From an uncultured Lachnospiraceae bacterium (GTDB taxonomy: Bacteria; Bacillota; Clostridia; Lachnospirales; Lachnospiraceae): a stretch of DNA of 39,639 nucleotides. The notes beneath the pieces were generated by a model that saw only the letters and a program-made list of their open reading frames with translations, did not search any database and was not told the origin of the DNA. Shown piece by piece: positions 13,313 to 35,665 of this stretch; the first letter of the stretch is position 1; each line of letters starts with the position of its first letter. The stretch is taken from positions 1 to 39,639 of the forward strand of contig CATLEQ010000005.1 of NCBI GenBank assembly GCA_949915905.1. The letters are read 5' to 3'. Made by a program: the position numbers and the translations under genes.

Positions 13313-14947
13313 CTATTCCCCGACCTTGGTTCGTTGTTCGGAGATCCGTTTTCCATTCTCATCGTACTCGTACACGGTATACTCCCGCAATTCTCCATTT
13401 CCCCGATAACTGTCATCCCTGATACGCCGTCCATTCGCATCGTTTTCATATGTATGATAAGAATTCAAGGTTCCATCGGCAAGGTAACGGCTTTGTCTTA
13501 TCCGATATCCATTTTCATCATATTCATAGACGTAATAAGCGTCCAAGTTCCCGTCCGCGTCATAGTGGTTGCTCCGCGTAACATGTCCTGCCGCATCATA
13601 CTCGTATATCCTGGAGTCATAAATCTCCCCGTTTTCTTTATAAGAAACACCGCTTACCTGATATCCATTTTCATCATATTCCCATGTGTTTCTGCTGAGT
13701 TTGCCCGTATCCGTAGCCCACCCCCAGGTCTGGGTTTGCTTGCCCGCTTCATTATAAAGTATTTCTCCCTCACCGGTCTGTACCCCGGAAGCATCATACG
13801 CCACGATTCGCACTCTTCGCCCTTGTTCATCATAGAAATAATCATGATACCACGCCAGACTGCCATCCCGATAGGAGCTGTACCGTCTCGTCCGATGTTG
13901 GGAATCCGTAATCTCCCCGCTCTCCATTTCCGCGATTTTATCCTTTATCTCCGCATTGTCCGAGGCCTTTTCAAGCCCGTCTTCCAAAATATCCATCGCC
14001 GCGTCATACTCGCCCCGGCGAATCTCCAAGTCGGCCAGCCCGAGGTACACCCCCGCCTCCGTATCGTCCAGTTCCATCGCCTTCTCATAATCCGCCTGCG
14101 ACAACGCAAAATTTTCCTCCGTCTCCCCGTCGATAATGTGGGCGTTTCCACGCAAGACGTGAGCCTGGGCTGTACCATCCTTTGGGATTTGTAAATCGGA
14201 CGCTTCATTTGTCTTCTTGCCAAGATCCTCGTCCGCCAGCAGTTCCTCCAGAATATAGAACGGAATCTCATTTAGCTCTAACTCGTCCTTAATAATGTCG
14301 CACTTCTCCCCTTCGGAAGATTCTCCTGCTGAATAAAGATGAAGTTCCGCCTTTTCCCCGCCTGAAACCTGCTCCGTCCTGCTCTCTCCTGACTTGGAAT
14401 CGGTCACGGTACATTCCACGGTTCCTTCCAGAATATAAACATTCATGTGGTTCTCGTCAAACACCTTCACCCAGCCGCAGGTTCCCCGGATGCCGACCGT
14501 CATCGTGGAGGTACGGATTTCAAATGTCTCATCTGCTTTTAAAGGTTCCGTAACGTTAAAAAACACGCCGCCGGAATTGACAACGACCTCCAACTTCTTC
14601 CCGTCTTTTTGAATCTCAATTTCGCTCTCCTCGTCCATCTTCGCCAGCTTTACGTCGTCCAGGGCAATCCAGGCATGGCTCTTTTCCTCCGTCCCCATCT
14701 GGTAGCCGCCGTAGAGGTTCATGTTTTCCGCCAGAGAAACATTTTCCCCCTTTTCGTCCGAAACGCCGACCGTCCCTTCCGTCTTCGTAAGCCGCATGAC
14801 GGATGCCGAGCCTTCGCCGCCCCCGCAACCAACACAACTCGCACAAAGCAGGACAATCACCGTCAAAACCGCTACCGCTTTTCTACTTTTCATCAATCCT
14901 TTTTTCCTCCTAATTAATTCACATACATCCTCCAAGCCAGTCAACAC
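13313..14947 (-). CDS. FecR-like/TPR/YD-repeat lipoprotein, paralog 1 (likely starts near 14893)
   Basis: MKSRKAVAVLTVIVLLCASCVGCGGG lipobox; FecR-like middle; TPR-like segment; C-terminal EYDENG repeats. Confidence 0.75.
   Translation of the reverse strand: MLTGLEDVCELIRRKKGLMKSRKAVAVLTVIVLLCASCVGCGGGEGSASVMRLTKTEGTVGVSDEKGENVSLAENMNLYGGYQMGTEEKSHAWIALDDVKLAKMDEESEIEIQKDGKKLEVVVNSGGVFFNVTEPLKADETFEIRTSTMTVGIRGTCGWVKVFDENHMNVYILEGTVECTVTDSKSGESRTEQVSGGEKAELHLYSAGESSEGEKCDIIKDELELNEIPFYILEELLADEDLGKKTNEASDLQIPKDGTAQAHVLRGNAHIIDGETEENFALSQADYEKAMELDDTEAGVYLGLADLEIRRGEYDAAMDILEDGLEKASDNAEIKDKIAEMESGEITDSQHRTRRYSSYRDGSLAWYHDYFYDEQGRRVRIVAYDASGVQTGEGEILYNEAGKQTQTWGWATDTGKLSRNTWEYDENGYQVSGVSYKENGEIYDSRIYEYDAAGHVTRSNHYDADGNLDAYYVYEYDENGYRIRQSRYLADGTLNSYHTYENDANGRRIRDDSYRGNGELREYTVYEYDENGKRISEQRTKVGE
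13894..14909. repeat. ~1,016-bp near-identical block, copy 1 (partner 17008-18023)
   Basis: Constant offset of 3,114 bp to copy 2 with about six mismatches seen by eye, mostly in the signal-peptide region. Confidence 0.9.
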
Positions 14948-14983
14948 AGCGACCGGCTGGAGGATGTGTCATAACGCATTATC

Positions 14984-16027
14984 CTATTCTACAATCGTAT
15001 CCAAATATCCTTGTGCCTCCTTTGCGGTAAGATGATATTTTTCCTGAACCTTGGCAAGAATTGTTTGTGACGGGATATTCAATTCCATCAAGGTCGAAAC
15101 CATATTTCGAATTCCTTCCTGTCGCTCTTCTTGCCGGCCTTTGCGCCAACCTTCCTGCCGGCCTTTGCTCCACCCTTCTTGTTGACCCTTACGCCATCCT
15201 TCCTGCTGGCCTTGCCGAATGCCTTTACAAAGTATTCTGTGCGCCTCAGTTTCGACAACTCCTCCTACCATAACCGAATTCACTCCTTTCCGCACGGATG
15301 TGTATTTTTCCGCGATGTGCTTCACCACCTTGCCTGATAATTCAATAATCATACGATAGGTGTATTCGCTGATTTCTCCTCGAACCGTCAAATTTTCAAG
15401 CCGCCTTTTTATCTGCGCATATTCTTGTTTCAATAGCTCCAACTTCTTCTCGTCCTGCTCATATTCCTCGAACCGGCTCTCGTGGGAGAAAACATAAAAC
15501 GGGAGCAAAAACAGAAGCTTTTTCTCAAATATCTCATCCAGTGAGTACTGTTGCGTTTTCATTACCGGAACGTCATACGCGACCTCCCCGCCCGGCGTGG
15601 ACATCTTGATTTTCATGCTGTCCGGCGTGGCGGAATTGCTCCGCAAAAATAATACCGCCGAATGAGGAAACGTTACCGTGAGGGTGTTTCCCCGAATCTC
15701 CCCGTCATCTAACGCAATTTGTGTGTCATACTCAAATATCCTCACCACCATGCTGTTATCGGGTCCGCTCTGACACTCCAAATGGTACTTCCGCGCCTCT
15801 CTTCCTAATATTTTAAAACAAGTGTCCGTGATTCGCTTCTCCATGTTTCCGTCCTGCCGGTTCATAAAGTGCTCATTCACTGAAAAGACAATTTCCTCCG
15901 CTCCCGAATAATCCTCTTCAAACAGTTCGTTAATCAGCGGAACAATCAGTCCCCGGCAATCATTCAACAACGTACGGAACACGTCATCATACGTCGTGTG
16001 TGATGTTTGCATCTCTCCCATTGACAT
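14984..16027 (-). CDS. Rpn-family PD-(D/E)XK nuclease/transposase-like protein with Q/G/W/K-rich repeats
   Basis: TTYDDVFRTLLNDC...YHLECQSGPDNSM (ExQ motif)...GQQEGWRKGQQEGWSKGRQEGWRKGRQEERQEG...AQGYLDTIVE. Confidence 0.8.
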   Translation of the reverse strand: MSMGEMQTSHTTYDDVFRTLLNDCRGLIVPLINELFEEDYSGAEEIVFSVNEHFMNRQDGNMEKRITDTCFKILGREARKYHLECQSGPDNSMVVRIFEYDTQIALDDGEIRGNTLTVTFPHSAVLFLRSNSATPDSMKIKMSTPGGEVAYDVPVMKTQQYSLDEIFEKKLLFLLPFYVFSHESRFEEYEQDEKKLELLKQEYAQIKRRLENLTVRGEISEYTYRMIIELSGKVVKHIAEKYTSVRKGVNSVMVGGVVETEAHRILCKGIRQGQQEGWRKGQQEGWSKGRQEGWRKGRQEERQEGIRNMVSTLMELNIPSQTILAKVQEKYHLTAKEAQGYLDTIVE

Positions 16028-16374
16028 CCCTCTCTTTCTCTGTTGTTTGAGAGGTCACTGGCCAATGGCCGGATGGAGTTCAAACCGACACGGCATCCTC
16101 AAAGTGTAAATCTCCACGCACCCCGTATTCTTACACCCGTCAACCATGGCTTTTTATGAAACCTCTCTGCTATTTTCTTAATGGGTTACAAGCATTGAGA
16201 TTTCCGTATGTGCACCATATGGTCGAAATGATTCAGAACCGTAAATCATTTGGAAGTTGGAAACAGTCTTGATGTAACGCATCAAAAATGTTTCCCGAGA
16301 AATTTTAATGCTCTACAAAAAATATAACATAGACAGATGAAATACGCAAGCCAGAATTTGTAGAAAAAGGGCAA

Positions 16375-16393
16375 CGTGCGCTAAAAGCGCACG
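16375..16393 (-). terminator. Hairpin downstream of lipoprotein paralog 2
   Basis: CGTGCGC-loop-GCGCACG followed on the minus strand by TTGCCCTTTTT. Confidence 0.55.
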
Positions 16394-16423
16394 ATTTTGC
16401 AGCTGTTTGGGTAACCTCCAATC

Positions 16424-18010
16424 CTATTCTCCAACCGTGATTCTCTGCTCCGATATTCGGTTGCCATCTTCATCATACTCATATAGTGTATACCATTTCA
16501 GTTCTCCATCTTCGCCATACTGACTGCTTTTAACATTCTTTCCATTTTCATCATATTCGTATAAACGGTACGAATCCAATTTTCCATCGGCCGTATAGCG
16601 GCTTTGCTTTGTCTGTTTTCCATTTTCATCATATTCAAAGCTGTCATAGTTTTGTAGACTTCCTTCCGGGCTATACCGGCTGAGTTTTATCCGATGTCCT
16701 TCCCCATCGTATTCTCTTATGGTATAGCTTCTGAGTTCCCCGTCTTTCCCGTACGAATCGGTTCGTATCTGGTTCCCATTTTCATCATATTCATGTATGT
16801 TTTTAGAAAGTCGGCCATCCTCATCATACCAACTCCATGTTTGAAGCTGTCTGCCAGCCTCATCATAAAGTTCTTCGCCTGCACTTGTCTGCGTTCCGGC
16901 CGCGTCATATGAAACGGCTCGTGTCTTTCGCCCCTGGGCATCATAAAAATACTCGTGATACCATCTCAAACTACCGTCCTCTTCCAAAAATGAGTACCTT
17001 CTCGTTCGATGTTGGGAATCCGTAATCTCCCCGCTCTCCATTTCCGCGATTTTATCCTTTATCTCCGCATTGTCCGAGGCCTTTTCAAGCCCGTCTTCCA
17101 AAATATCCATCGCCGCGTCATACTCGCCCCGGCGAATCTCCAAGTCGGCCAGCCCGAGGTACACCCCCGCCTCCGTATCGTCCAGTTCCATCGCCTTCTC
17201 ATAATCCGCCTGCGACAACGCAAAATTTTCCTCCGTCTCCCCGTCGATAATGTGGGCGTTTCCACGCAAGACGTGAGCCTGGGCTGTACCATCCTTTGGG
17301 ATTTGTAAATCGGACGCTTCATTTGTCTTCTTGCCAAGATCCTCGTCCGCCAGCAGTTCCTCCAGAATATAGAACGGAATCTCATTTAGCTCTAACTCGT
17401 CCTTAATAATGTCGCACTTCTCCCCTTCGGAAGATTCTCCTGCTGAATAAAGATGAAGTTCCGCCTTTTCCCCGCCTGAAACCTGCTCCGTCCTGCTCTC
17501 TCCTGACTTGGAATCGGTCACGGTACATTCCACGGTTCCTTCCAGAATATAAACATTCATGTGGTTCTCGTCAAACACCTTCACCCAGCCGCAGGTTCCC
17601 CGGATGCCGACCGTCATCGTGGAGGTACGGATTTCAAATGTCTCATCTGCTTTTAAAGGTTCCGTAACGTTAAAAAACACGCCGCCGGAATTGACAACGA
17701 CCTCCAACTTCTTCCCGTCTTTTTGAATCTCAATTTCGCTCTCCTCGTCCATCTTCGCCAGCTTTACGTCGTCCAGGGCAATCCAGGCATGGCTCTTTTC
17801 CTCCGTCCCCATCTGGTAGCCGCCGTAGAGGTTCATGTTTTCCGCCAGAGAAACATTTTCCCCCTTTTCGTCCGAAACGCCGACCGTCCCTTCCGTCTTC
17901 ATAAGCCGCATGACGGATGCCGAGCCTTCGCCGCCCCCGCAACCGACACAACCCACACAAAGCAAGGCAATCACCGTCAAAACCGCTACCGCTTTTCTAC
18001 TTTTCATCAA
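16424..18010 (-). CDS. FecR-like/TPR/YD-repeat lipoprotein, paralog 2
   Basis: N-terminal ~340 aa almost identical to paralog 1; divergent C-terminal EYDENG repeats. Confidence 0.75.
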   Translation of the reverse strand: MMKSRKAVAVLTVIALLCVGCVGCGGGEGSASVMRLMKTEGTVGVSDEKGENVSLAENMNLYGGYQMGTEEKSHAWIALDDVKLAKMDEESEIEIQKDGKKLEVVVNSGGVFFNVTEPLKADETFEIRTSTMTVGIRGTCGWVKVFDENHMNVYILEGTVECTVTDSKSGESRTEQVSGGEKAELHLYSAGESSEGEKCDIIKDELELNEIPFYILEELLADEDLGKKTNEASDLQIPKDGTAQAHVLRGNAHIIDGETEENFALSQADYEKAMELDDTEAGVYLGLADLEIRRGEYDAAMDILEDGLEKASDNAEIKDKIAEMESGEITDSQHRTRRYSFLEEDGSLRWYHEYFYDAQGRKTRAVSYDAAGTQTSAGEELYDEAGRQLQTWSWYDEDGRLSKNIHEYDENGNQIRTDSYGKDGELRSYTIREYDGEGHRIKLSRYSPEGSLQNYDSFEYDENGKQTKQSRYTADGKLDSYRLYEYDENGKNVKSSQYGEDGELKWYTLYEYDEDGNRISEQRITVGE

Positions 18011-18023
18011 TCCTTTTTTCCTC
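17008..18023. repeat. ~1,016-bp near-identical block, copy 2
   Basis: See 13894-14909. Confidence 0.9.
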
Positions 18024-18027
18024 TCAT

Positions 18028-19584
18028 TTATTCCTCACCCATAACCCGCTGCTCGGATACCAGTTCCCCCTCCTCGTCATACTCGTACGTGATGTCCCAT
18101 CTCAATTCTCCGGTTCCACGATAGCTTCTATCCCTAACGCAGTATCCTTTCTCATCATACTCGTATAAATGATAAGAAATCAGCGTCCCATCCTCCGAGT
18201 AATGATTTTTCCTTATCTGGTTTCCGTTTTTATCATATTCATAAGTATAATATACGTCCAGATATCCTCCCACTTCGTATTGACTGCTTTTTACTAAAAG
18301 CCCTTCTTCATCGTACTCATTTTCACAATAATAAATAAACAGCCCCTCGGTATCATATACTTTTTTTCTCACTCGATTTCCATTTTCATCAAACTCGTAA
18401 GTTTCTTTCATAAGCTTTCCGGTTTGGGTTTCCCATCCATATGCCTGGATTTTCCTTCCCTCCTCATCATACTTCTCTTCTCCCGTCCCGAGCTGCTTTC
18501 CCGAAGCGTCATACGCCATGATTTTTATCCTGCGCCCTTGCTCATCATAAAAATAGTCATGATACCAGGCCAACTCACCATCCCTATAAAGGGAATACCT
18601 TCTCATACGCTGCTGGGAGTCTTTTATTTCCCCACTCTCCATCTCCGCAATTTTTTCCTTGATTTCCGTACTGTCCCCCGTTTCCTCTAACGCATTTTCC
18701 AGGATTTCCATCGCCGCATCATACTCGCCCTGGCGAATCTCCAAGTCGGCCAGTCCCAGATAGCCTCCTGCATTCGTCGCATCCAATTCTAACGCCTTCT
18801 CGTAATCCGCCCGCGCCAGCTCTATGTTTTCCTTTGTCTCTCCGTCAGAAATACGAGCCGTTCCGCGCAGTGCATAAGCCTGCGATGAACCCTCCTTGGG
18901 AATTTGTATGTCCAAGGCGGCGTTTATCTTTCTTCTAAGGCCATTATCCGCCCACACTTCCTCCAAAACGTAAGAGGGAACCTCGTATAATTCCAGCTTA
19001 TCCTTGGTCATGTCGTACTTTCCGGACTCTTTTCTTGAATAAAAGTTCAGTTCCGCCTTTTCCCTGCTTGAAATCTGCTCCGTCCTCATCTCCCCGTTTT
19101 TCGGATTCGTCATGCCACATTCCACGCTTCCCGTCAAAACAAAAACGTTCTCATGCGTATCATCAAGCACTTCCACCCAACCGCAACCTTCCTGGATATC
19201 AACCGTCATCGTGGAAGTTCGGATTACAAATGTTTCCTCATCCTTTACCGGTTTCGTGACGTAAAAAAACACGCCGCCGGAACTAACGATGACTTCCGTC
19301 TTCTCTCCGTCTTTTTGAACCTCAACCTCGCTCTCCTTATCCAACTTTACCGTCTTCACGCCATCCAGGGCAATCCATGCATGGCTTTCCTCTCCCGTTT
19401 CCATGCGGCAGCCCTCGGAAAGCTCCACATTTTCCGCCTGGGAAACCGTCTCCCCGTTTCCGTTTAAGATTTCGACCGTCCCTTCCGTCTTCGTAAGGCG
19501 CATGGCGGAGTTCGAACCCCCACAACCCGCGCAAAACAAGGTTACTATCATTAAAAGTGCCACCGTTCTCCTACATTTCATCAT
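18028..19584 (-). CDS. FecR-like/TPR/YD-repeat lipoprotein, paralog 3
   Basis: MMKCRRTVALLMIVTLFCAGCGGSNSAMRLTKTEGTVEI...; same architecture, divergent N-terminal half; C-terminal YEYDEKG repeats. Confidence 0.75.
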   Translation of the reverse strand: MMKCRRTVALLMIVTLFCAGCGGSNSAMRLTKTEGTVEILNGNGETVSQAENVELSEGCRMETGEESHAWIALDGVKTVKLDKESEVEVQKDGEKTEVIVSSGGVFFYVTKPVKDEETFVIRTSTMTVDIQEGCGWVEVLDDTHENVFVLTGSVECGMTNPKNGEMRTEQISSREKAELNFYSRKESGKYDMTKDKLELYEVPSYVLEEVWADNGLRRKINAALDIQIPKEGSSQAYALRGTARISDGETKENIELARADYEKALELDATNAGGYLGLADLEIRQGEYDAAMEILENALEETGDSTEIKEKIAEMESGEIKDSQQRMRRYSLYRDGELAWYHDYFYDEQGRRIKIMAYDASGKQLGTGEEKYDEEGRKIQAYGWETQTGKLMKETYEFDENGNRVRKKVYDTEGLFIYYCENEYDEEGLLVKSSQYEVGGYLDVYYTYEYDKNGNQIRKNHYSEDGTLISYHLYEYDEKGYCVRDRSYRGTGELRWDITYEYDEEGELVSEQRVMGEE

Positions 19585-19735: not shown

Positions 19736-21064
19736 CTAAAACTCTAGACTGTCCGCATTTAAAAGAAAGTACTTCATCCCCATGATCACAAATCCTTCTT
19801 CATTTCTCCATGGTCGCATCGTTTTGTCCACTATGACAATCTTCTTAAAGGAATCCGGAATATTCCGAAAGGAATGAAACTCCTGCGCTTGTTTTTTCTC
19901 TGAAGCCATATCATACGCCACCTGAACATAATATCTTTGACTACCTTGATTTACCACAAAATCAACCTCCAGCTGTTTATGAACTCTTTTGCCATCACTA
20001 TTTTTTTCACATACATCCACAATACCGACATCTACATTGTAACCACGTACCAGCAACTCATTATATACGATATTCTCCATGATATGGGTAGGTTCTTGCT
20101 GCCTAAAATTCAGTCTCGCATTTCTAAGTCCCACATCCGTAAAATAATATTTCAAATTTGTACCCACGTACTTTCTGCCCTTGATGTCATACTTGTTCGC
20201 TTTCGAAATCAAAAATGCTTCCGCCAGATAGTCGATATGGGCAGATATGGTTTTATGGTTGTAACTGCTTTTCAGCTCACTTTTAAACGTGTTCGCTATT
20301 CTGGTCGGGTTCGTGGGTGTCCCTATGGCAGAGGCGAGAATATCCACCAGCGTTCCAATCTCGTCCACACTTTGAATTTTATTTCTCTCCACCACGTCCT
20401 TAATGTAAACATTTGTAAAAATATTTTTTAAATATTCCGTTTTCTGGCGTTCCGTGGAAAATTGTACCACTTGCGGAAGTCCGCCATAAATCATGTATTC
20501 ATTCCAGGCTTCATCATAGTCCCCGCCATAAACAGAAAAAAACTCCGCAAAGGACAACGGATACATTCTGACCTCGTCCCCTCTGCCCCGAAATTCCGTC
20601 ACGATGTCACTTGATAGAAATTTAGAATTACTGCCCGTCACATACACGTCAATATTATTTATGCGAATCAAACTATTCAACACCTCTTCAAAACGCGGCA
20701 TAAACTGCACTTCGTCCAAAAGTAAATAATAGTTCTTTTCATCCTTCATCTCGCCTTTGATATACTGATAGCACTTATTCGGATCCCTTAGTTCCTCATT
20801 TTCAATACCATCCAGAGCAATCTCAATAATATGTTCGTCATCTACCCCGTTTTCCAATAAATATTTTTTAAAAAGTTCAAATAGCAAAAAGGATTTCCCA
20901 CATCTCCTGATTCCCGTAATTACTTTTATCATGCCGTTATCTTTTCTTATTTTTAACTGCTCCATGTATGCATCTCTTTTAATCTCCATAGTTTCTCTCC
21001 CTATTTGCGTGCAATGCACGAATTTTGGTAATATGATTTTATCACAAAAGTTCCTTTTATTCAA
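19736..21064 (-). CDS. AAA ATPase with DUF4143-like C-terminus (likely start at MEIKRDAY, ~20989)
   Basis: KVITGIRRCGKSFLLFELFKKYL Walker A; YYLLLDEVQFMPRFEEVLNSL Walker B; VYVTGSNSKFLSSDI; QLEVDFVVNQG near the C-terminus. Confidence 0.85.
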   Translation of the reverse strand: MNKRNFCDKIILPKFVHCTQIGRETMEIKRDAYMEQLKIRKDNGMIKVITGIRRCGKSFLLFELFKKYLLENGVDDEHIIEIALDGIENEELRDPNKCYQYIKGEMKDEKNYYLLLDEVQFMPRFEEVLNSLIRINNIDVYVTGSNSKFLSSDIVTEFRGRGDEVRMYPLSFAEFFSVYGGDYDEAWNEYMIYGGLPQVVQFSTERQKTEYLKNIFTNVYIKDVVERNKIQSVDEIGTLVDILASAIGTPTNPTRIANTFKSELKSSYNHKTISAHIDYLAEAFLISKANKYDIKGRKYVGTNLKYYFTDVGLRNARLNFRQQEPTHIMENIVYNELLVRGYNVDVGIVDVCEKNSDGKRVHKQLEVDFVVNQGSQRYYVQVAYDMASEKKQAQEFHSFRNIPDSFKKIVIVDKTMRPWRNEEGFVIMGMKYFLLNADSLEF

Positions 21065-21307
21065 TATGCATTACCAAAACTCGCACCCCTTGTATCTGGT
21101 TTTTATAACTACTTTTCGAAATATCTGCATGTAAAATGGTTGCGTTTTCCGCAGAAACGTAGTATCCTATATAGTAATATGAAGTACTTTGTACGTCCAT
21201 TCTTTTTTAAGCGTAAAAAAGAGTTTCGCTTGCGAAACTCTCGCGCCGGAGCGCGGCTGCGCCAGCAGCCATTTTCCTTAGGCGCGAAGTGCGCATCCCC
21301 TGGAGGA

Positions 21308-21346
21308 TTTTGTGTTGTAGGAAGCTTCGTTTCCTACAACACAAAA
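21308..21346. terminator. Perfect 16-bp hairpin TTTTGTGTTGTAGGAA-gcttcgt-TTCCTACAACACAAAA
   Basis: Inverted repeat in the leader region of degV. Confidence 0.6.
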
Positions 21347-21400
21347 ATGTATCGGCTACAAAGTTCAGACCGATTCTCATTCACGGGAATCAAACCACAG

Positions 21401-27536: not shown

Positions 27537-27541
27537 CCGGA

Positions 27542-27613
27542 TGACTCCCAGGGGAATCGAACCCCTGATTCCAGCGTGAGAGGCTAGCGTCTTAACCGCT
27601 TGACCAGGGAGCC
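27542..27613 (-). tRNA. tRNA-Glu (CTC anticodon)
   Basis: GGCTCCCTGGTCAAGCGGTTAAGACGCTAGCCTCTCACGCTGGAATCAGGGGTTCGATTCCCCTGGGAGTCA; cloverleaf folds by eye, anticodon loop CTCTCAC. Confidence 0.93.
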
Positions 27614-27783
27614 ATATTTACTTGTCACTTACGAACCATTTCCCGCAAGCAAGGTTTACTATAACACATAACGTTCCATAATGCAAGCATTTTTTTCTGT
27701 TTTTCGATTTTTTTCAACGCGTCCCCTCATTCCAGCATGAGGGAACGCATTCTATATTCCATTATTTTGTCATCCCGCAATCA

Positions 27784-30762
27784 TCAGCACGTCGCCCCGC
27801 CGACCACGGTCTTCTTCAAAATCTCGCCCTTGTCAATTTTGCTATTCAGCAGCTTATCCTGCGCATACTCAAACCCGAGCCGGGCTATCGTGTCCGCGAA
27901 GCGTTCACCTGACTTGCCCTCGTCACGGAAGAAAAGAATTGCACGCTCCACAAGCTCGATTACTTCCTCCTCCGAGGTAAATACCTTGTCAAGCGGACGG
28001 CCTTCTGCCGTCTTCTTTCCCCATCTTCCGCCAATGTATACCTTGTAGCCCACGGCCGACTCACCTACCGCGCCAAACGGGCATTTCCCGATACAGCGTC
28101 CGCAATGGTTACAGCTTCCCTCCGGTATCTCGATCTTCCCGTCCGCCAAACGTGCGACATGAATCGGGCAGGCGTTTTCCACCTGGCAGACCTTGCAGCC
28201 CCGGCATCTTGACAAATCAATCTCCGGCACGCGCTGGCCAATCACACCCAGGTCGTTGAGATCCGGCTTCACGCAGTTGTTCGGACAGCCGCCCACGGCG
28301 ATTTTGAATTTATGCGGCAATGCCACGTCATGATATCCCTTATAATATAAATCATGCAATTTTTCCGACAGAGAGAACGTGTCAATCAATCCGTACTGGC
28401 AGGTCGTTCCCTTACAAGACACCACCGGGCGCACCTTCGAGCCGGTACCGCCGGTCTCAAGCCCCGCCTCACCGAGGAATTCCCGGATTGCGTCAATCTT
28501 GTCATATGGCACTCCCTGAATCTCCAATGTAAGCCTCGTGGTCATCGTGACTTCCCCGGATCCAAACCGCTCCGCCGCCTCGGCAATCTTTTTCTGCTCT
28601 TCCGCCGTCACCTTGCCATTCCTGGTAATGACACGCACGTTGAACACGTCGTCATACCGCTTATCCTGCAGGCAGCCAAGCCCCTTCACACGTTTGATTT
28701 CCTCAGCGGAAAGCTTTCCGCCGTCGCGGGGAACCTTCACCTCGTTAAAGAACGCCCCGCCTTCCAACACAAGCGTGTTCGTATATCCCAAAGCTTTCAG
28801 GCGATTGTGTAAAAAGTACCCTCTTTTGCCTTTCGCGCACACGAGAAGGAGCTTTGCATCCTTCTTAAGACCCTCCAACGGCTCTTTCACCGTGGAAAGG
28901 TCAATCCACCTTGCATTCGGCAACGCCGGTGCCGGTTGCACGTCAAGCACCGTGTAACCCTTCGCCGCCCCTTTTGCATATTCCGCCGGACTCATGCTTT
29001 CCATAACGCCGTCCAGTTTATTTTCCAATATGTAACATGCCGTCACGAATGGATGGATCGCCGTGGAAAATGGCGGCGCATAGGCAAAATCCATCGTGTC
29101 AAAGTCATCCAGCCTCATCCCCTGGGAAATTCCCGTCACGGCGATGTCAACCATCTTATCCACCGCGCCCGCTCCCAACACCTGGATGCCGAGAAGCTTC
29201 CTGCTCTCCCTCTCCGCCGTCAGTTTCACGACGAATGTAGATGCTCCAGGATAATAATGCGCCTTGTCATCTAACACGCAGACGGCCGACACCGCGTCAT
29301 ATCCCGCCGCTTTCGCCTGTGTCTCGGTAAGTCCCGTCCTTCCGCCGTTTAACGTGGGCAAAATACGTACGACTCCCGTCCCGAGACAACCGCCATACCC
29401 ATTGCCCTGCCCATGTATGCCTTTCGCCAAAGCCCTTGCCGCCAGATTGGCGGTCGAACCCATCGCGGACCATTGCGGTGCCTTTGTGACCGCATTTTTC
29501 ACCATCGCACAATCGCCTGCCGCGTAAATGTCCAAGACATTTGTCCGAAGCTCCTCGTCCACCACGATGGCACCTTTCACCATCTCGATTCCCGAATCCG
29601 CCAAGAACTCCGTGCATGGCCGCACGCCGATTGCCATGATGACCACGTCCGCCGCAAGACTGCCTTTGTCGGTCTCCACGCTCTCCACATGCGAACTTCC
29701 CGCAATTCCCGTCACGCTGGTGGACGTGAGCACGCGCATCCCAGCCGCCTTGATTTGCCGCTTCGCATAGTACGCCATCTCCTCGTCAAATGCATTCGGC
29801 ATGATTTGCCCCATCGCGTCAATCACCGTCACTTCAAGCCCTTGCGCCTTCAAATTTTCCGCGACCTCAAGACCGATAAAGCCCGCCCCGCAGACGACCG
29901 CCTTGCGGCAATTTCCTTTTTCTATATAGTCGCGAACCGCCACGGCATCGTCCGGCGTACGCACGCAGAACACGCCGGACAAATCCGTCCCTTCGATTGG
30001 CGGCACGAACGGTACGGCTCCCGTCGCGATAATCAATTTGTCATACCTTTCCAAAAATGTTTCGCCGGACGACGTTTTAAACGTCACCCGTTTATTCGCA
30101 CTGTCGACCTTGATTGCCTCACAGCCCGTCGTCACTCTGACCCCCGTAAGATTCGCATATTTTTCCGGCGAATTCACGATCAATTCCTCACGCGTTTCAA
30201 TCTCCCCGCCAATGTAATACGGCAGTCCGCACCCGGCGTAAGAAATATCCTCGCTTTTGGTGAACACCTTCACCTTTGCACTTCTGTCGCACCGCTTTAA
30301 TTTTGCCGCCGCCTTCGTCCCCGCCGCGACACCGCCCAAAATCACATACTTCATCCGATTGCTCTTTCTTCTTGTTTCCGTGGGCGGCGAAAGTTGCGCC
30401 ACTCCATCCAGCACGGCCAGCACCCGCTCCCGTTCCAATGGCTTATAAATAAAGCCCTTCGTCCCGACAACTTTCGCCTCCTCAATCGTATCGTCATAAG
30501 CCAAAGAAGAAACCATGATAATTTTCGCCTCGGGATGTGCCTCCAAAATCTCCCGTGCGGCTTCCAACCCGTCCATGCCCGGCATGACAATGTCCATGGT
30601 CACCAAATCCGGCAAAATCTCTTCATACTTCTCGACGGCCTCAACCCCGCTCCGGCAAAAAGCCGCGATCTCATAATCCGTATCCTCCAAAAATTCCTGC
30701 ATCTGCAATTGAATCGCCCGCAAATCATCTACCACCATGACTCGCTTTCCCATTGCTATCAT
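27784..30762 (-). CDS. Receiver + CoA-disulfide reductase-like flavoprotein + rhodanese + siroheme sulfite reductase-like + 2x[4Fe-4S] fusion
   Basis: REC: VMVVDD...TMDIVMPGMDG...IMVSSLAY...GFIYKP; flavoprotein from 30354: MKYVILGGVAAGTKAAAKL, ISYAGCGLPYYIGG, VVCGAGFIGLEVAENL, DIYAAGDCA; rhodanese: VLDVQP...LLLVCAKGKRGYFLHNRLKALGYTNTLVLEGG; siroheme/FeS: CKGTTCQYGLIDT and GGCPNNC; ferredoxin: CRGCKVCQVENACPI and CNHCGRCIGKCPFGA. Confidence 0.9.
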   Translation of the reverse strand: MIAMGKRVMVVDDLRAIQLQMQEFLEDTDYEIAAFCRSGVEAVEKYEEILPDLVTMDIVMPGMDGLEAAREILEAHPEAKIIMVSSLAYDDTIEEAKVVGTKGFIYKPLERERVLAVLDGVAQLSPPTETRRKSNRMKYVILGGVAAGTKAAAKLKRCDRSAKVKVFTKSEDISYAGCGLPYYIGGEIETREELIVNSPEKYANLTGVRVTTGCEAIKVDSANKRVTFKTSSGETFLERYDKLIIATGAVPFVPPIEGTDLSGVFCVRTPDDAVAVRDYIEKGNCRKAVVCGAGFIGLEVAENLKAQGLEVTVIDAMGQIMPNAFDEEMAYYAKRQIKAAGMRVLTSTSVTGIAGSSHVESVETDKGSLAADVVIMAIGVRPCTEFLADSGIEMVKGAIVVDEELRTNVLDIYAAGDCAMVKNAVTKAPQWSAMGSTANLAARALAKGIHGQGNGYGGCLGTGVVRILPTLNGGRTGLTETQAKAAGYDAVSAVCVLDDKAHYYPGASTFVVKLTAERESRKLLGIQVLGAGAVDKMVDIAVTGISQGMRLDDFDTMDFAYAPPFSTAIHPFVTACYILENKLDGVMESMSPAEYAKGAAKGYTVLDVQPAPALPNARWIDLSTVKEPLEGLKKDAKLLLVCAKGKRGYFLHNRLKALGYTNTLVLEGGAFFNEVKVPRDGGKLSAEEIKRVKGLGCLQDKRYDDVFNVRVITRNGKVTAEEQKKIAEAAERFGSGEVTMTTRLTLEIQGVPYDKIDAIREFLGEAGLETGGTGSKVRPVVSCKGTTCQYGLIDTFSLSEKLHDLYYKGYHDVALPHKFKIAVGGCPNNCVKPDLNDLGVIGQRVPEIDLSRCRGCKVCQVENACPIHVARLADGKIEIPEGSCNHCGRCIGKCPFGAVGESAVGYKVYIGGRWGKKTAEGRPLDKVFTSEEEVIELVERAILFFRDEGKSGERFADTIARLGFEYAQDKLLNSKIDKGEILKKTVVGGATC

Positions 30763-30774
30763 CTCCTTTACGTG

Positions 30775-32616
30775 TCACAATAAACGTATCTCGCCCTTTA
30801 ACCACACCGCCGTACACGGCTCGACTTCGTACTTCAGCAAATGACGGGCACTGCCGATGATGATTTCCGTCCCCGCATAAGCCGTCACGCATGTCAGCCT
30901 CTGGCCCTTATGCTCTCTGTCGCTCTCCTCGCTCTTGCGAATTTCATTTTCAAACTGCTCAAGACGCTTTTTGTCCACCGAGAGCTTCATCCGCGTCATC
31001 GGCAGGTTTTTGCGCTTTTCGGGACTGTCCGGCTGTTTCTCCAACCTTTCAAGCTCCCTCTCCATTTCTTCAATTCCGCGCCGCAGGCTCTCGCACTCGA
31101 ACTCGTCGCTCGGCCTTCCGCCCAAGGACACCGTCGTCACGCCCTCGGCCCTGGATCCCACGACGTTCGCCCGAACCTCCCGACCCGCACGGATTTTGCC
31201 GCCGATGACGATGCCGCGCCCGGAACATGCATTTACCGCCCCGTCACAATATGCATTACAATTCACGATATAATCCGTCAGCAGGTTTTCTCTCGCGCAG
31301 AGGACACTGTTTTCAATATACCTCGCGTAAATGCTGCGTCCCGTACGAATCACGGCCTGATTATCACCCTTGATTCCTTTCACCACGACCAGGTCACCCC
31401 CGGCTTCAATCACGCAGCCCTCCACGACACCGTCCACGGTAATGTTCCCCGATGCCTTGACTTCGAAACCGCCGCGAATGTCGCCGCGGATATGCACGTC
31501 TCCCAGGAAATTGATGTTTCCGGTGGAATAATCCACGTTCTCACCGATTTCCAATGCCGTCTTGATTTCAAAACTATGCCCGTTAAATTCGATACGGCCG
31601 GTCTTGGCCGCTTTCAGCGTCGTTCCATCCTCGGACAGTTCGGTATTCCGTCCCTTAGGCACCGTTGCTTTCTTTCCCGCCTTAGGTGGAAGCTCCCTGC
31701 CCGCCACCGTGGTGCCGGGTACCCCGGGAACCGGCTCGATAATCTCGCAAATCACATCCCCCTCTTCTATATTGCGGACATTGTTCAGCTGCATATAATC
31801 AATCTGCCCGCTCTCATTCATGGCGAGCTCTTTACGTCCGATACGGGGAATCTTATCCACGACATAACCGTCTTTCCCATTCTCCGGAAGTTTCCCTTCC
31901 GCCACCAGATACAGCCGAAAATACCGTTCCTCATTCTGAGGCAAGCTGTCAAGCAGCGTCTCGTCCACGCCAAATTTCACACCGTTCTCACTCAAGGCCG
32001 CTTCCAGCATGCCACGCTCTAATTCCTTGCCGCCGCCTGCCGGAGGATACACAATCACCCATACCGTCATCTGGTCTTGCGTAAGGAACGTCACCACCTG
32101 GGCATCCAATCGGGGAACCACCTCGATTTGCTTCTCCCGCAGTTCCTCGTCTGCTTGAGCCTCCTCGTCCGCTTGAATCTTCCGCGGCTCCTCATCCGTT
32201 TGCGCCTCTTGCCCGTCCTCCATCGTGTCTGTCTCTGCAACCGTCTCCCACCTGGGCTTTGCCTTTGCAAGACGTGCCTCCGCAGTAGTGTCAACCTTCT
32301 GTCCCAAACGAATCAGTTCAAATTCCAGCTTTTCTTCCGCCAATAACTCCGGCTGCTTCAACGCCCCCGCCAGACGTATCACGGGTCTTGCCGCGGATTC
32401 CGCTCCTCCTTTCTGCCCTAGCCATAACTCCCACAGTTGGTTCAGGGCATGTTCCGGAGCCTATTCCATCTGTGTCGGGTCAGTCTCGGTCACCGGCAGT
32501 GCCCCCCCCTCTTCCTGGCCTTCTGCTGCCTGTGCCTCCAAGTTTTGCTCCTCTTCCTTGTTTTCCTCGGTTTTTGAGCCGAACAACCGGGAAAATATGG
32601 AATCCTTCAAACCCAT
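30775..32616 (-). CDS. FapA/DUF342-type protein; reading frame interrupted by TAG at 32461-32463 (ORF track starts it at GTG 32382)
   Basis: Right-handed repeat region FLGDVHIRGDIRGGFEVKASGNITVDGVVEGCVIEAGGDLVVVKGIKGDNQAVIRTGRSIYARYIENS; upstream in-frame MGLKDSIFSRLFGSKTEENKEEEQNLEAQAAEGQEEGGALPVTETDPTQME*APEHALNQLWELWLGQKGG with GGAGGTG RBS at 32616. Confidence 0.8.
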
Positions 32617-32757: not shown

Positions 32758-34788
32758 TTACTTTTCATGGGCGGACGCCCAAACAGCTGCGTACCCGTCT
32801 ACATAGATCGTGGAATTTGTCGTCTCGTCCCGAATCTCGATTTTCATTTCCCGGGAGTAATCCAACGGAAACAGAAGCGGCTGCAGGTCAAATTCCTTTA
32901 AAACCGCGTCTTCTATCCATGCTTCTATCTCGTCCGGTTTTTCATAGTGCTTGGAATCCTTGCGTCCCACACCCTTTCCTTCCACGCTGACCACGCTTAT
33001 GGAGCGCACGGAATAATCCGGCAGTCCTTTCCCCGGCTCCGCCCCGTATTCCTTCAACAGTCCGCAGGTCTTCGCAAAGAACGGGTACACCACCATCTGA
33101 TTGGAATAATACGGTACTTCCGAGGTCACCTCCACAAAACCAATCGGCGGAGACGTTCGAAGTTCCTCCATCCCCATGCTTTCCACGTCCTTTTCGTAGG
33201 CATCCAAAAGGGCTTCCTTTTCCTCGTCCGTCAGTTTCAGAGCCGTATCCGTGACACCGTCCGACCAGGTGAAACGGGCATCGGACACACGTCTGCTCCG
33301 CCCGGCAAGATAAGCAATGTTTTTATACTCTGCCGTATCATATACGAAAGCGAAGCTCTGCAAGTCTTCCTCGTCTATCGAATACTGCCGGTAAACCTCC
33401 CTTCCGTCTTTCATACGATAACGAACCGTCACCCGGGTTATCCTGCTTGCTCCTTCGTCCGCTCCCCCTTCTATCGCGCCGTTCTCCGAAACCACGGACA
33501 GAATCCACGCAAATGCGGCATCCTTCCCTTCTTCCTTCAAGACATACTTATCAAGCTGCCGTTCCGTCTCATACTGCTCCCCTTTTCCCAACGCACGCAT
33601 ATAGCCCGCATAATTCATGTCCAGTCCGGCGATACTGACCCCGATTTCTTCCACTTCTCCCACTTCAGGCAAGAAAGCATCAAATGAAGAAGCACCCACG
33701 AAAAACACCAAACCCGTCAAGACGACCGCCGCACATTCCAAGGCAAGCTGCCATTTCCGTCGCAGGATTTTCCCCCACGATTTCCCTCCGGCATTTCCCG
33801 CGCCCCATTCCAGCAGGCAATGCACCGTTACCGCCGCCATCACGCCGACCAATGCACTGGCCGCGCCTTCTGCCATGGGATTTTGGGAAAATCCTGACAA
33901 CTCCGTAAACAGACTTCCGCTCCACACTCCGGCGAGAAAGGAAAGTAACCCAAACGCCGCCCGCTCCGCCAGGGGAACGGCAAACATCCGCCCGACCCGC
34001 TCGGTCTTTCGTTTCTTCTGCACCATGGAAAAGAGCAAAAAAGGGAACAGAATCCAGATTAAGGCAGATATGGCATACAAGGCCGACGGCACATGCTCAA
34101 ACACCGCCAGCTTGTCAAACAGATTCTGCCCCGTCAAATGCTCCGCCAAAAAAAGAGGGGACAAGACGATGTCTAACGTTTCAAGCAAAGGGATTCTATA
34201 ATAGGTATGATAATTTGTTTCCGCCCATGTGACAAATACGTTCTCAATCAAAATATGCCCATAGTTCAAACAGAGTGCGTATCCTAAGATTGCCGGAAGA
34301 ACATTTCCGCAAACGGAAAGAAAAAGAATCCCCATATGGTAAAACACAAGAAATACCGCGGTAAATATCAAAATACTATGCCCCGTATAACTGGACGAAT
34401 ATGGCAGAAAGTCCACGTCCAGATTCGCCTCAAACAACCCGCAGGCCGTCATCACCAGCACGAGGGGTGCCACAAAATGCAAAAGTCCATGTACGTACCG
34501 TCCCCAGAATATCGTGCCCTTCCTAACCGGCAAACCATAGTAAAAATCCAGCTTTTTCGGCTGCATCAAATAAAAAAACTCCAAAAAGGAGAGCGCCGCA
34601 CCAAGTCCCGCGAAAATCCACAACTGTTCCTGACTGCCGATGCAAAAAAAACACGACTCCGTACTAAGGCCAAGCCGCACCATCGTCATCAGGGCATATC
34701 CCGCCAGCGTTCCCCAGGACAAAAACGCTACGATATGACCTCTCCCCGCTTCCTTTACCCATTTAAGAAAGTACTTTTCTGATGTCAT
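32758..34788 (-). CDS. ABC-2-type transporter permease-like membrane protein with large extracytoplasmic region
   Basis: Multiple TM segments; adjacent and overlapping the ABC ATPase gene. Confidence 0.8.
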   Translation of the reverse strand: MTSEKYFLKWVKEAGRGHIVAFLSWGTLAGYALMTMVRLGLSTESCFFCIGSQEQLWIFAGLGAALSFLEFFYLMQPKKLDFYYGLPVRKGTIFWGRYVHGLLHFVAPLVLVMTACGLFEANLDVDFLPYSSSYTGHSILIFTAVFLVFYHMGILFLSVCGNVLPAILGYALCLNYGHILIENVFVTWAETNYHTYYRIPLLETLDIVLSPLFLAEHLTGQNLFDKLAVFEHVPSALYAISALIWILFPFLLFSMVQKKRKTERVGRMFAVPLAERAAFGLLSFLAGVWSGSLFTELSGFSQNPMAEGAASALVGVMAAVTVHCLLEWGAGNAGGKSWGKILRRKWQLALECAAVVLTGLVFFVGASSFDAFLPEVGEVEEIGVSIAGLDMNYAGYMRALGKGEQYETERQLDKYVLKEEGKDAAFAWILSVVSENGAIEGGADEGASRITRVTVRYRMKDGREVYRQYSIDEEDLQSFAFVYDTAEYKNIAYLAGRSRRVSDARFTWSDGVTDTALKLTDEEKEALLDAYEKDVESMGMEELRTSPPIGFVEVTSEVPYYSNQMVVYPFFAKTCGLLKEYGAEPGKGLPDYSVRSISVVSVEGKGVGRKDSKHYEKPDEIEAWIEDAVLKEFDLQPLLFPLDYSREMKIEIRDETTNSTIYVDGYAAVWASAHEK

Positions 34789-35665
34789 ATCCCGCGCCCT
34801 CCATTTCCGTGATAAACATTTCTTCCAGATTCAGGGGAACCTCGCCTACAAAAATCGGATTTTGCTCCTCTATAAGCGTCTGAATTTCCCCGGTGTCACC
34901 TCTTGTAATCAACGTGACAAACCGCGCGTCCTCATGAAACCGCACAATCTGCGGGCATTCCTTAAGCGCGTCCAGCTTTGCCTCAAGTGGAAACACGCAC
35001 TGGAATTTTCTGGCATTTCCCGCCTGCTTTCGAAAATCCCCCGCCGTGACCACGCCGCCCTTGTGGAGGATGGCGATATTTCCGCAAATATCCTCCAAGT
35101 CCCCCAGCTTGTGCGATGCCACGATTATGGTAAAATCCCGCGCCTTCATCTCCTGCCGGAACAAATTTTTCATAATCTCCGTGGCAATCGGATCCAAACC
35201 GTCAAACACCTCGTCGCAAAAAAGATATTTCGTGCGGGAACACAGTGCCAATATAAGGAACGCCTGCCGTTTCATTCCTTTTGAAAATGTCCGAATCGGC
35301 TGCAGCATGTCCAGATTGAGGGACTCCGCCATATAGGAAACGGATTCCGCGTCCATGTCCGGATACTGCTTCGCAAAAAAATCCGCCATCACCTGGATGG
35401 ACGCATTTGGAAAATAATACGGGTCGTCCGGCAAGTAAAAAACCTTTTCCTTACAAGACGGGGAGAGGAAATCCCCCTCCCCGTCCAACCGTATCTCTCC
35501 AAAATCCGCCTCGATGATGCCGCAAAGCATCCTGAGCAATGTCGTTTTTCCCGCGCCGTTCGTACCCAGCAGTCCAAACATGATGCCGTCCTCTATTTCC
35601 AATGAGACGTGGTTTACCGCACAAACGTCGTCAAAGGATTTTGTCAAATCATGAATCCGGATCAT
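34763..35665 (-). CDS. ABC transporter ATP-binding protein
   Basis: GLLGTNGAGKTTLLRMLCG Walker A; FSKGMKRQAFLILAL signature; KYLFCDEVFDGLDP Walker B. Confidence 0.95.
   Translation of the reverse strand: MIRIHDLTKSFDDVCAVNHVSLEIEDGIMFGLLGTNGAGKTTLLRMLCGIIEADFGEIRLDGEGDFLSPSCKEKVFYLPDDPYYFPNASIQVMADFFAKQYPDMDAESVSYMAESLNLDMLQPIRTFSKGMKRQAFLILALCSRTKYLFCDEVFDGLDPIATEIMKNLFRQEMKARDFTIIVASHKLGDLEDICGNIAILHKGGVVTAGDFRKQAGNARKFQCVFPLEAKLDALKECPQIVRFHEDARFVTLITRGDTGEIQTLIEEQNPIFVGEVPLNLEEMFITEMEGAGYDIRKVLS

Follow-up and report, generated by a model that had tools for sequence, protein, structure and literature searches.

This study concerns a 39,639-nt stretch of DNA (the window) from a metagenome-assembled genome of a gut-type Lachnospiraceae bacterium (74.8% complete, 497 contigs), the one genome from which the fusion gene described here is known. 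On the minus strand of the window, 992 codons lie open from 30762 to 27784 with no internal stop, in agreement with an earlier sequence-only reading that had claimed a single uninterrupted frame without giving its strand. The frame joins a CheY-like receiver (REC), a CoA-disulfide reductase-like flavoprotein, a rhodanese, a siroheme sulfite reductase and two [4Fe-4S] motifs. The motifs named in that reading are all present in the translated frame, and the domain search it proposed for the full protein recovered receiver, flavoprotein, rhodanese, siroheme and Fer4 modules with Pfam, every call being above the curated cut-off. Since each module aligns with its own family along the greater part of the module, the frame is not a chance one.

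All features of the locus given below lie on the minus strand. Directly upstream is a gene for FapA (flagellar assembly protein A, DUF342; 30775..32382; Pfam FapA 3.6e-55, FapA_N 1.2e-35), and the REC start codon is placed 21 nt past its stop; downstream is a tRNA-Glu (CTC) gene (27539..27614). The first in-frame ATG (30762) directly touches a Shine-Dalgarno sequence, AAAGGAG, while a second, at 30753, has a spacing of 9 nt from it and a duplex energy of -12.6 kcal/mol (Shine-Dalgarno and spacer, 30754..30769; ATG, 30751-30753). Because of this spacing and energy, and because the sequence from 30753 (MGKRVMVVDD) aligns with the start of a stand-alone orthologue (MGKRIMVVDD), translation more likely begins at 30753 than at 30762, giving a predicted protein of 989 aa. 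The REC gene of the congener G006 has a Shine-Dalgarno layout that matches that of the window.

Architecture of the fused protein

The receiver (30409..30741, residues 8-118; Pfam Response_reg 7.5e-24) keeps the acidic Asp-Asp pair, the phospho-acceptor Asp, and the Ser and Lys when aligned with its orthologues. It is followed by a linker, LSPPTETRRKSNR (30355..30393, residues 124-136), which contains Pro and no stops, and then by M137 at 30354, the start-codon position of unfused relatives of the reductase. Here begins a CoA-disulfide/CoA-persulfide reductase-like FAD/NAD(P)H module (29056..30354, residues 137-569) with a redox Cys178 and Pfam matches to Pyr_redox_2 (137-424, 3e-62) and Pyr_redox_dim (474-569), followed by a rhodanese (28756..28980, residues 595-669; Pfam Rhodanese 7.9e-6) carrying Cys642 and Arg647. 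The closest known counterpart is the CoA-persulfide reductase (CoAPR) of Enterococcus faecalis (8a56), which shares both modules over residues 137-668 (E 6e-96), and whose catalytic C42, Cys508 and Arg513, the latter two in its rhodanese (PMC9405070), correspond to C178, C642 and R647. CoADR (3icr) and NoxA-3/Npsr (6pfz) are of the same kind. The redox Cys in a PNDOR module and the C-terminal rhodanese Cys/Arg that mark CoA-persulfide reductase/CoADR-RHD enzymes are thus all present, and scores fall below the curated NCBIfam cut-offs for CoA-disulfide reductase (389 vs 458 bits, and 376 vs 579 bits). This half of the protein is a candidate NAD(P)H-dependent reductase of the persulfide or the disulfide of CoA. 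Known CoADR-RHD enzymes terminate after the rhodanese, whereas the window protein adds a siroheme reductase after it and a receiver before.

The remainder consists of an NIR_SIR ferredoxin-like half domain (28468..28650, residues 705-765; Pfam NIR_SIR_ferr) with Arg710, and a siroheme-[4Fe-4S] sulfite reductase domain (27853..28443, residues 774-970; Pfam NIR_SIR 1.8e-31) with C783-X4-C788, C826-X3-C830, Arg778, Lys818 and Lys820. Within the latter is an inserted ferredoxin domain (28069..28230, residues 845-898; Fer4-type matches) with two [4Fe-4S] motifs, formed by C853/856/859/865 and C884/887/890/894. Of solved structures, Fsr (7npa, E 1.5e-36, and 7np8) matches residues 701-965 best, through its C-terminal half, which likewise contains the inserted ferredoxin domain. 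The four sulfite-binding residues of Fsr (Arg, Arg, Lys and Lys; PMC10229431) are shared, being R710, R778, K818 and K820 when counted along the printed alignment. The two differ in their donor modules, which is FrhB-like and uses F420 in Fsr but is CoADR-like and NAD(P)H-dependent in the fusion, and in the first cluster pair (C-X5-C in Fsr, C-X4-C here). AsrC (TIGR02912) and DsrAB have related siroheme/[4Fe-4S] modules, but the fusion falls far short of their cut-offs (103 vs 324 bits for AsrC, 95 vs 341 bits for DsrB), and they are separate subunits, unlike the single chain of the fusion. Among 71 reductase sequences, 14 functional Cys are invariant in all, including the four ligands of the siroheme-bridged [4Fe-4S] cluster (C783, C788, C826 and C830, 71/71), and a siroheme-pathway methyltransferase is encoded in the same genome. 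The domain is a candidate for siroheme binding and sulfite reduction. The proposal of a self-contained NAD(P)H-to-sulfur reductase finds support in the conserved C178, C642 and R647 of the first half, and R710, R778, K818 and K820 of the second.

Relatives of the two parts

From M137 onwards, the protein is an intact member of a family of about 856 aa that is widespread in Clostridia. Strong matches occur in 43/396 sampled genomes of the family Lachnospiraceae and in 21/388 of the class (the source genome being counted in both), and the genome scan gave 198 relatives, the best 80 of which were retained as loci. A receiver fused to the reductase was found in none of these best 80 of 198 loci, nor in the 42 other family genomes, the 20 other class genomes or the copies of congeners, so that a search of other genomes for the full architecture, as had been suggested, located it nowhere beyond its own genome. 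The sequence-only reading had also singled out the receiver as the least expected part, and its fusion is indeed unexpected. Two candidate fusions were dismissed: L002, where the match begins at residue 19, has an upstream stop and no receiver, and in L067 (match from residue 5) the receiver match lies in another, distant gene. At 323 highly conserved columns the window reductase deviates at 2 and its relatives at 0-2, indicating that it is not decaying.

Around the reductase gene, relatives carry among others a divergent LysR regulator, genes for IscS and NifU-like proteins, and genes for an iron-type ABC transporter, and in the congener G010 a siroheme-pathway methyltransferase gene is found about 4.5 kb away; such neighbours fit a siroheme/Fe-S sulfur reductase. 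In the gene tree, L001, L002 and L046 form a cluster with the window reductase (support 99), from which the congener copies (L089-L091, from genomes G002, G007 and G011) stand apart. As L001, L002 and L046 come from outside the genus, the gene was probably acquired from another lineage, the direction being read from this one gene tree. Some genomes of the class (e.g., G667, G757 and G567) carry a flavoprotein-rhodanese-only form of about 550 aa without the siroheme part, 50-55% identical to residues 130-680 of the fusion, which could be an evolutionary precursor or a split form. No description of a CoADR-rhodanese-siroheme fusion was found in the open literature searched, itself limited.

Orthologues of the receiver are separate genes in two congeners (G006 and G010) and in 14/395 other family genomes, always in frames of 121-155 residues, with identities to the window receiver of 76% (G006), 65% (G010) and 41-62% (the other 14). 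In a CheY-like single-domain protein the receiver makes up the entire protein, as is the case for these orthologues, but in the window the frame continues into the reductase. The stand-alone CheY-like proteins encoded beside FapA/CheX in Lachnospiraceae have a receiver 53-76% identical to that of the window, with the phosphorylation residues all kept; they stop after about 121 residues, while in the window protein a linker of 13 residues follows and leads on to the reductase. In G006 the orthologue stands directly after FapA, in the order DAGK-ABC-orf-FapA-REC, with a stop after REC. A CheX-like gene lies between FapA and the receiver in G010 and L115 (Pfam CheX above cut-off), and the CheX match is slightly under cut-off in L118 and L125; none was found at the receiver locus of G006 or of the window. 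A role as the canonical chemotaxis CheY was rejected, since G006 has this receiver as well as a separate CheY-like gene on a contig with CheW. Comparison of REC between the window and G006 gave dN 0.14 and dS 1.52, figures that span the time both before and after the fusion and that indicate purifying selection, though not necessarily selection still acting on the fused receiver. Lineage-specific changes number 9 in the window receiver, three of them at the junction, and 7 in that of G006.

In L118, L121 and L116, the genes lined up with relatives of the receiver include a second response regulator and one resembling CheX, joined in L118 by a weak Hpt match, and these rows may represent an uncharacterised phosphorelay.

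Origin of the fusion and competing explanations

The congener G009 has the same gene order as the window, GlnA-FBA-GH25-tRNA-Glu-FapA-DAGK-WhiA-RapZ-MurB, at 64-98% protein identity, but between its tRNA flank and FapA there is neither a receiver nor a reductase, only a gap of <100 bp; on its far side, the segment missing there is bounded by the tRNA-Glu. Elsewhere in the window, three related genes for FecR-domain and TPR proteins stand near each other at 13313-19584 (13316-14947, 16427-18010 and 18031-19584), and one copy is present at the matching place in the stretch fetched from G006. The AAA_14/DUF4143 gene at 19736-21064 is full length in the window, and at the corresponding position in G006 only its two ends (residues 16-65 and 404-442) remain, side by side, an internal deletion. 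A DUF6449 gene and an adjacent ABC ATPase gene (32758-35665) are common to the window and G006, and neither has a match between FapA and DAGK in G009. A dispersed intergenic repeat of about 130 bp (21212-21350; predicted structure -65.6 kcal/mol, z -6.3) is matched 40 times or more in G000, in G006 and in G009, once and weakly in G001 and not at all in G003, and has no Rfam match; one G009 copy lies between GH25 and tRNA-Glu, near where the window has its REC-reductase segment.

DNA similarity to G006 ends at 30407, a few codons short of the G006 REC stop, and the two REC genes align in frame to about 43 nt before the reductase ATG. Most of a 13/14-nt inverted repeat of sequence internal to REC falls within the linker, but 7/400 shuffles and 2/69 control stretches show as much, making a templated inverted insertion a weak candidate. 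The purine-rich AAGAAGAAAGAG upstream of ATG 30354 aligns with the Shine-Dalgarno region of the L001 reductase (6/500 shuffles), which is suggestive of an ancestral, now decayed ribosome-binding site; L001 is, however, one of 68 sequences tried, and this candidate was also set aside.

The fusion looks real and, among the genomes searched, is restricted to one metagenome-assembled genome, and is probably recent. We regard as the likely explanation that a reductase gene of 856 aa, gained by horizontal transfer or else retained differentially, ended up between FapA-REC and tRNA-Glu, that the REC stop codon was lost during the insertion, placing both in one frame, and that a polypeptide of about 989 aa, an NADH sulfur reductase with a receiver appendage, is now translated from the Shine-Dalgarno sequence of REC. 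An artefact, with either the contig being chimeric or an indel error masking a REC stop ahead of the reductase, is highly improbable. The draft genome is incomplete and the contig a single, short one, and a +1 frame across the junction would finish in an ATGA overlap with the reductase start, but the collinearity of both flanks in G009 would require two misjoins and so disfavours a chimera, the FapA-REC linkage is seen independently in G006, and REC stays in frame until close to the reductase ATG. The sequence-only reading had named two things that together would speak against the fusion; receivers are indeed separate in relatives, while a stop or frameshift, or a protein starting only at MKYVILGG, was not seen. 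That the frame yields two proteins, a full-length one with REC and a separate reductase begun at ATG 30354, is decidedly unlikely. This ATG is exactly at the ancestral start and is preceded by the purine-rich stretch that aligns with L001, but its anti-SD pairing (-6.7) is at the chance level of shuffles (-6.5) and below that of every relative measured (-7.2 to -19.8), favouring translation as one polypeptide. Several other listed starts in the window have weak Shine-Dalgarno sequences as well, so some internal initiation at 30354 may still occur.

It had been suggested that receiver phosphorylation controls the reductase. In such a scheme the receiver would take phosphate from acetyl phosphate or from a cognate kinase and so tune sulfur reduction by altering dimerisation or the access of NADH or ferredoxin. 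The receiver catalytic residues are intact, the domain is evolving about as fast as the free-standing G006 orthologue, the reductase is intact, and the linker has a Pro and no stops. Regulation of this type is nonetheless unlikely, given that the architecture occurs in a single genome, that the reductase relatives work without a receiver, that the orthologues of the receiver are free-standing and FapA/CheX-associated, and that the locus in the window has no adjoining kinase and lacks the CheX-like partner that some relatives encode next to REC. A low-confidence AlphaFold model (mean pLDDT 57, pTM 0.39) gave no placement of the receiver, whose pLDDT is below 50 throughout. The specific version, in which stop loss newly placed a siroheme sulfite/persulfide reductase under the direct phospho-control of a CheY-like receiver, is quite unlikely.

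Under the favoured explanation of a reductase with a receiver appendage, the fused protein most likely works as a siroheme sulfite/persulfide reductase that depends on NADH. NADH would reduce FAD, and the two ferredoxin clusters would relay the electrons to the siroheme-[4Fe-4S] centre, where sulfite (or sulfane-sulfur species) would be turned into sulfide, with Cys178 and rhodanese Cys642 handling CoA- or protein-bound persulfide. The receiver may still be phosphorylatable, but being new to the lineage it is probably a co-translated passenger, mainly a co-expressed N-terminal appendage that would couple synthesis of the reductase to FapA-REC expression. The locus appears to capture a fusion at an early stage, since a single genus offers the fusion, a receiver that stands alone (G006) and a site with neither part (G009). 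If the receiver is functional, it would provide a direct phospho-switch on sulfur reduction. The 856-aa reductase itself, widespread in gut Clostridia, may plausibly make sulfide from sulfite or persulfides, a source so far unrecognised.
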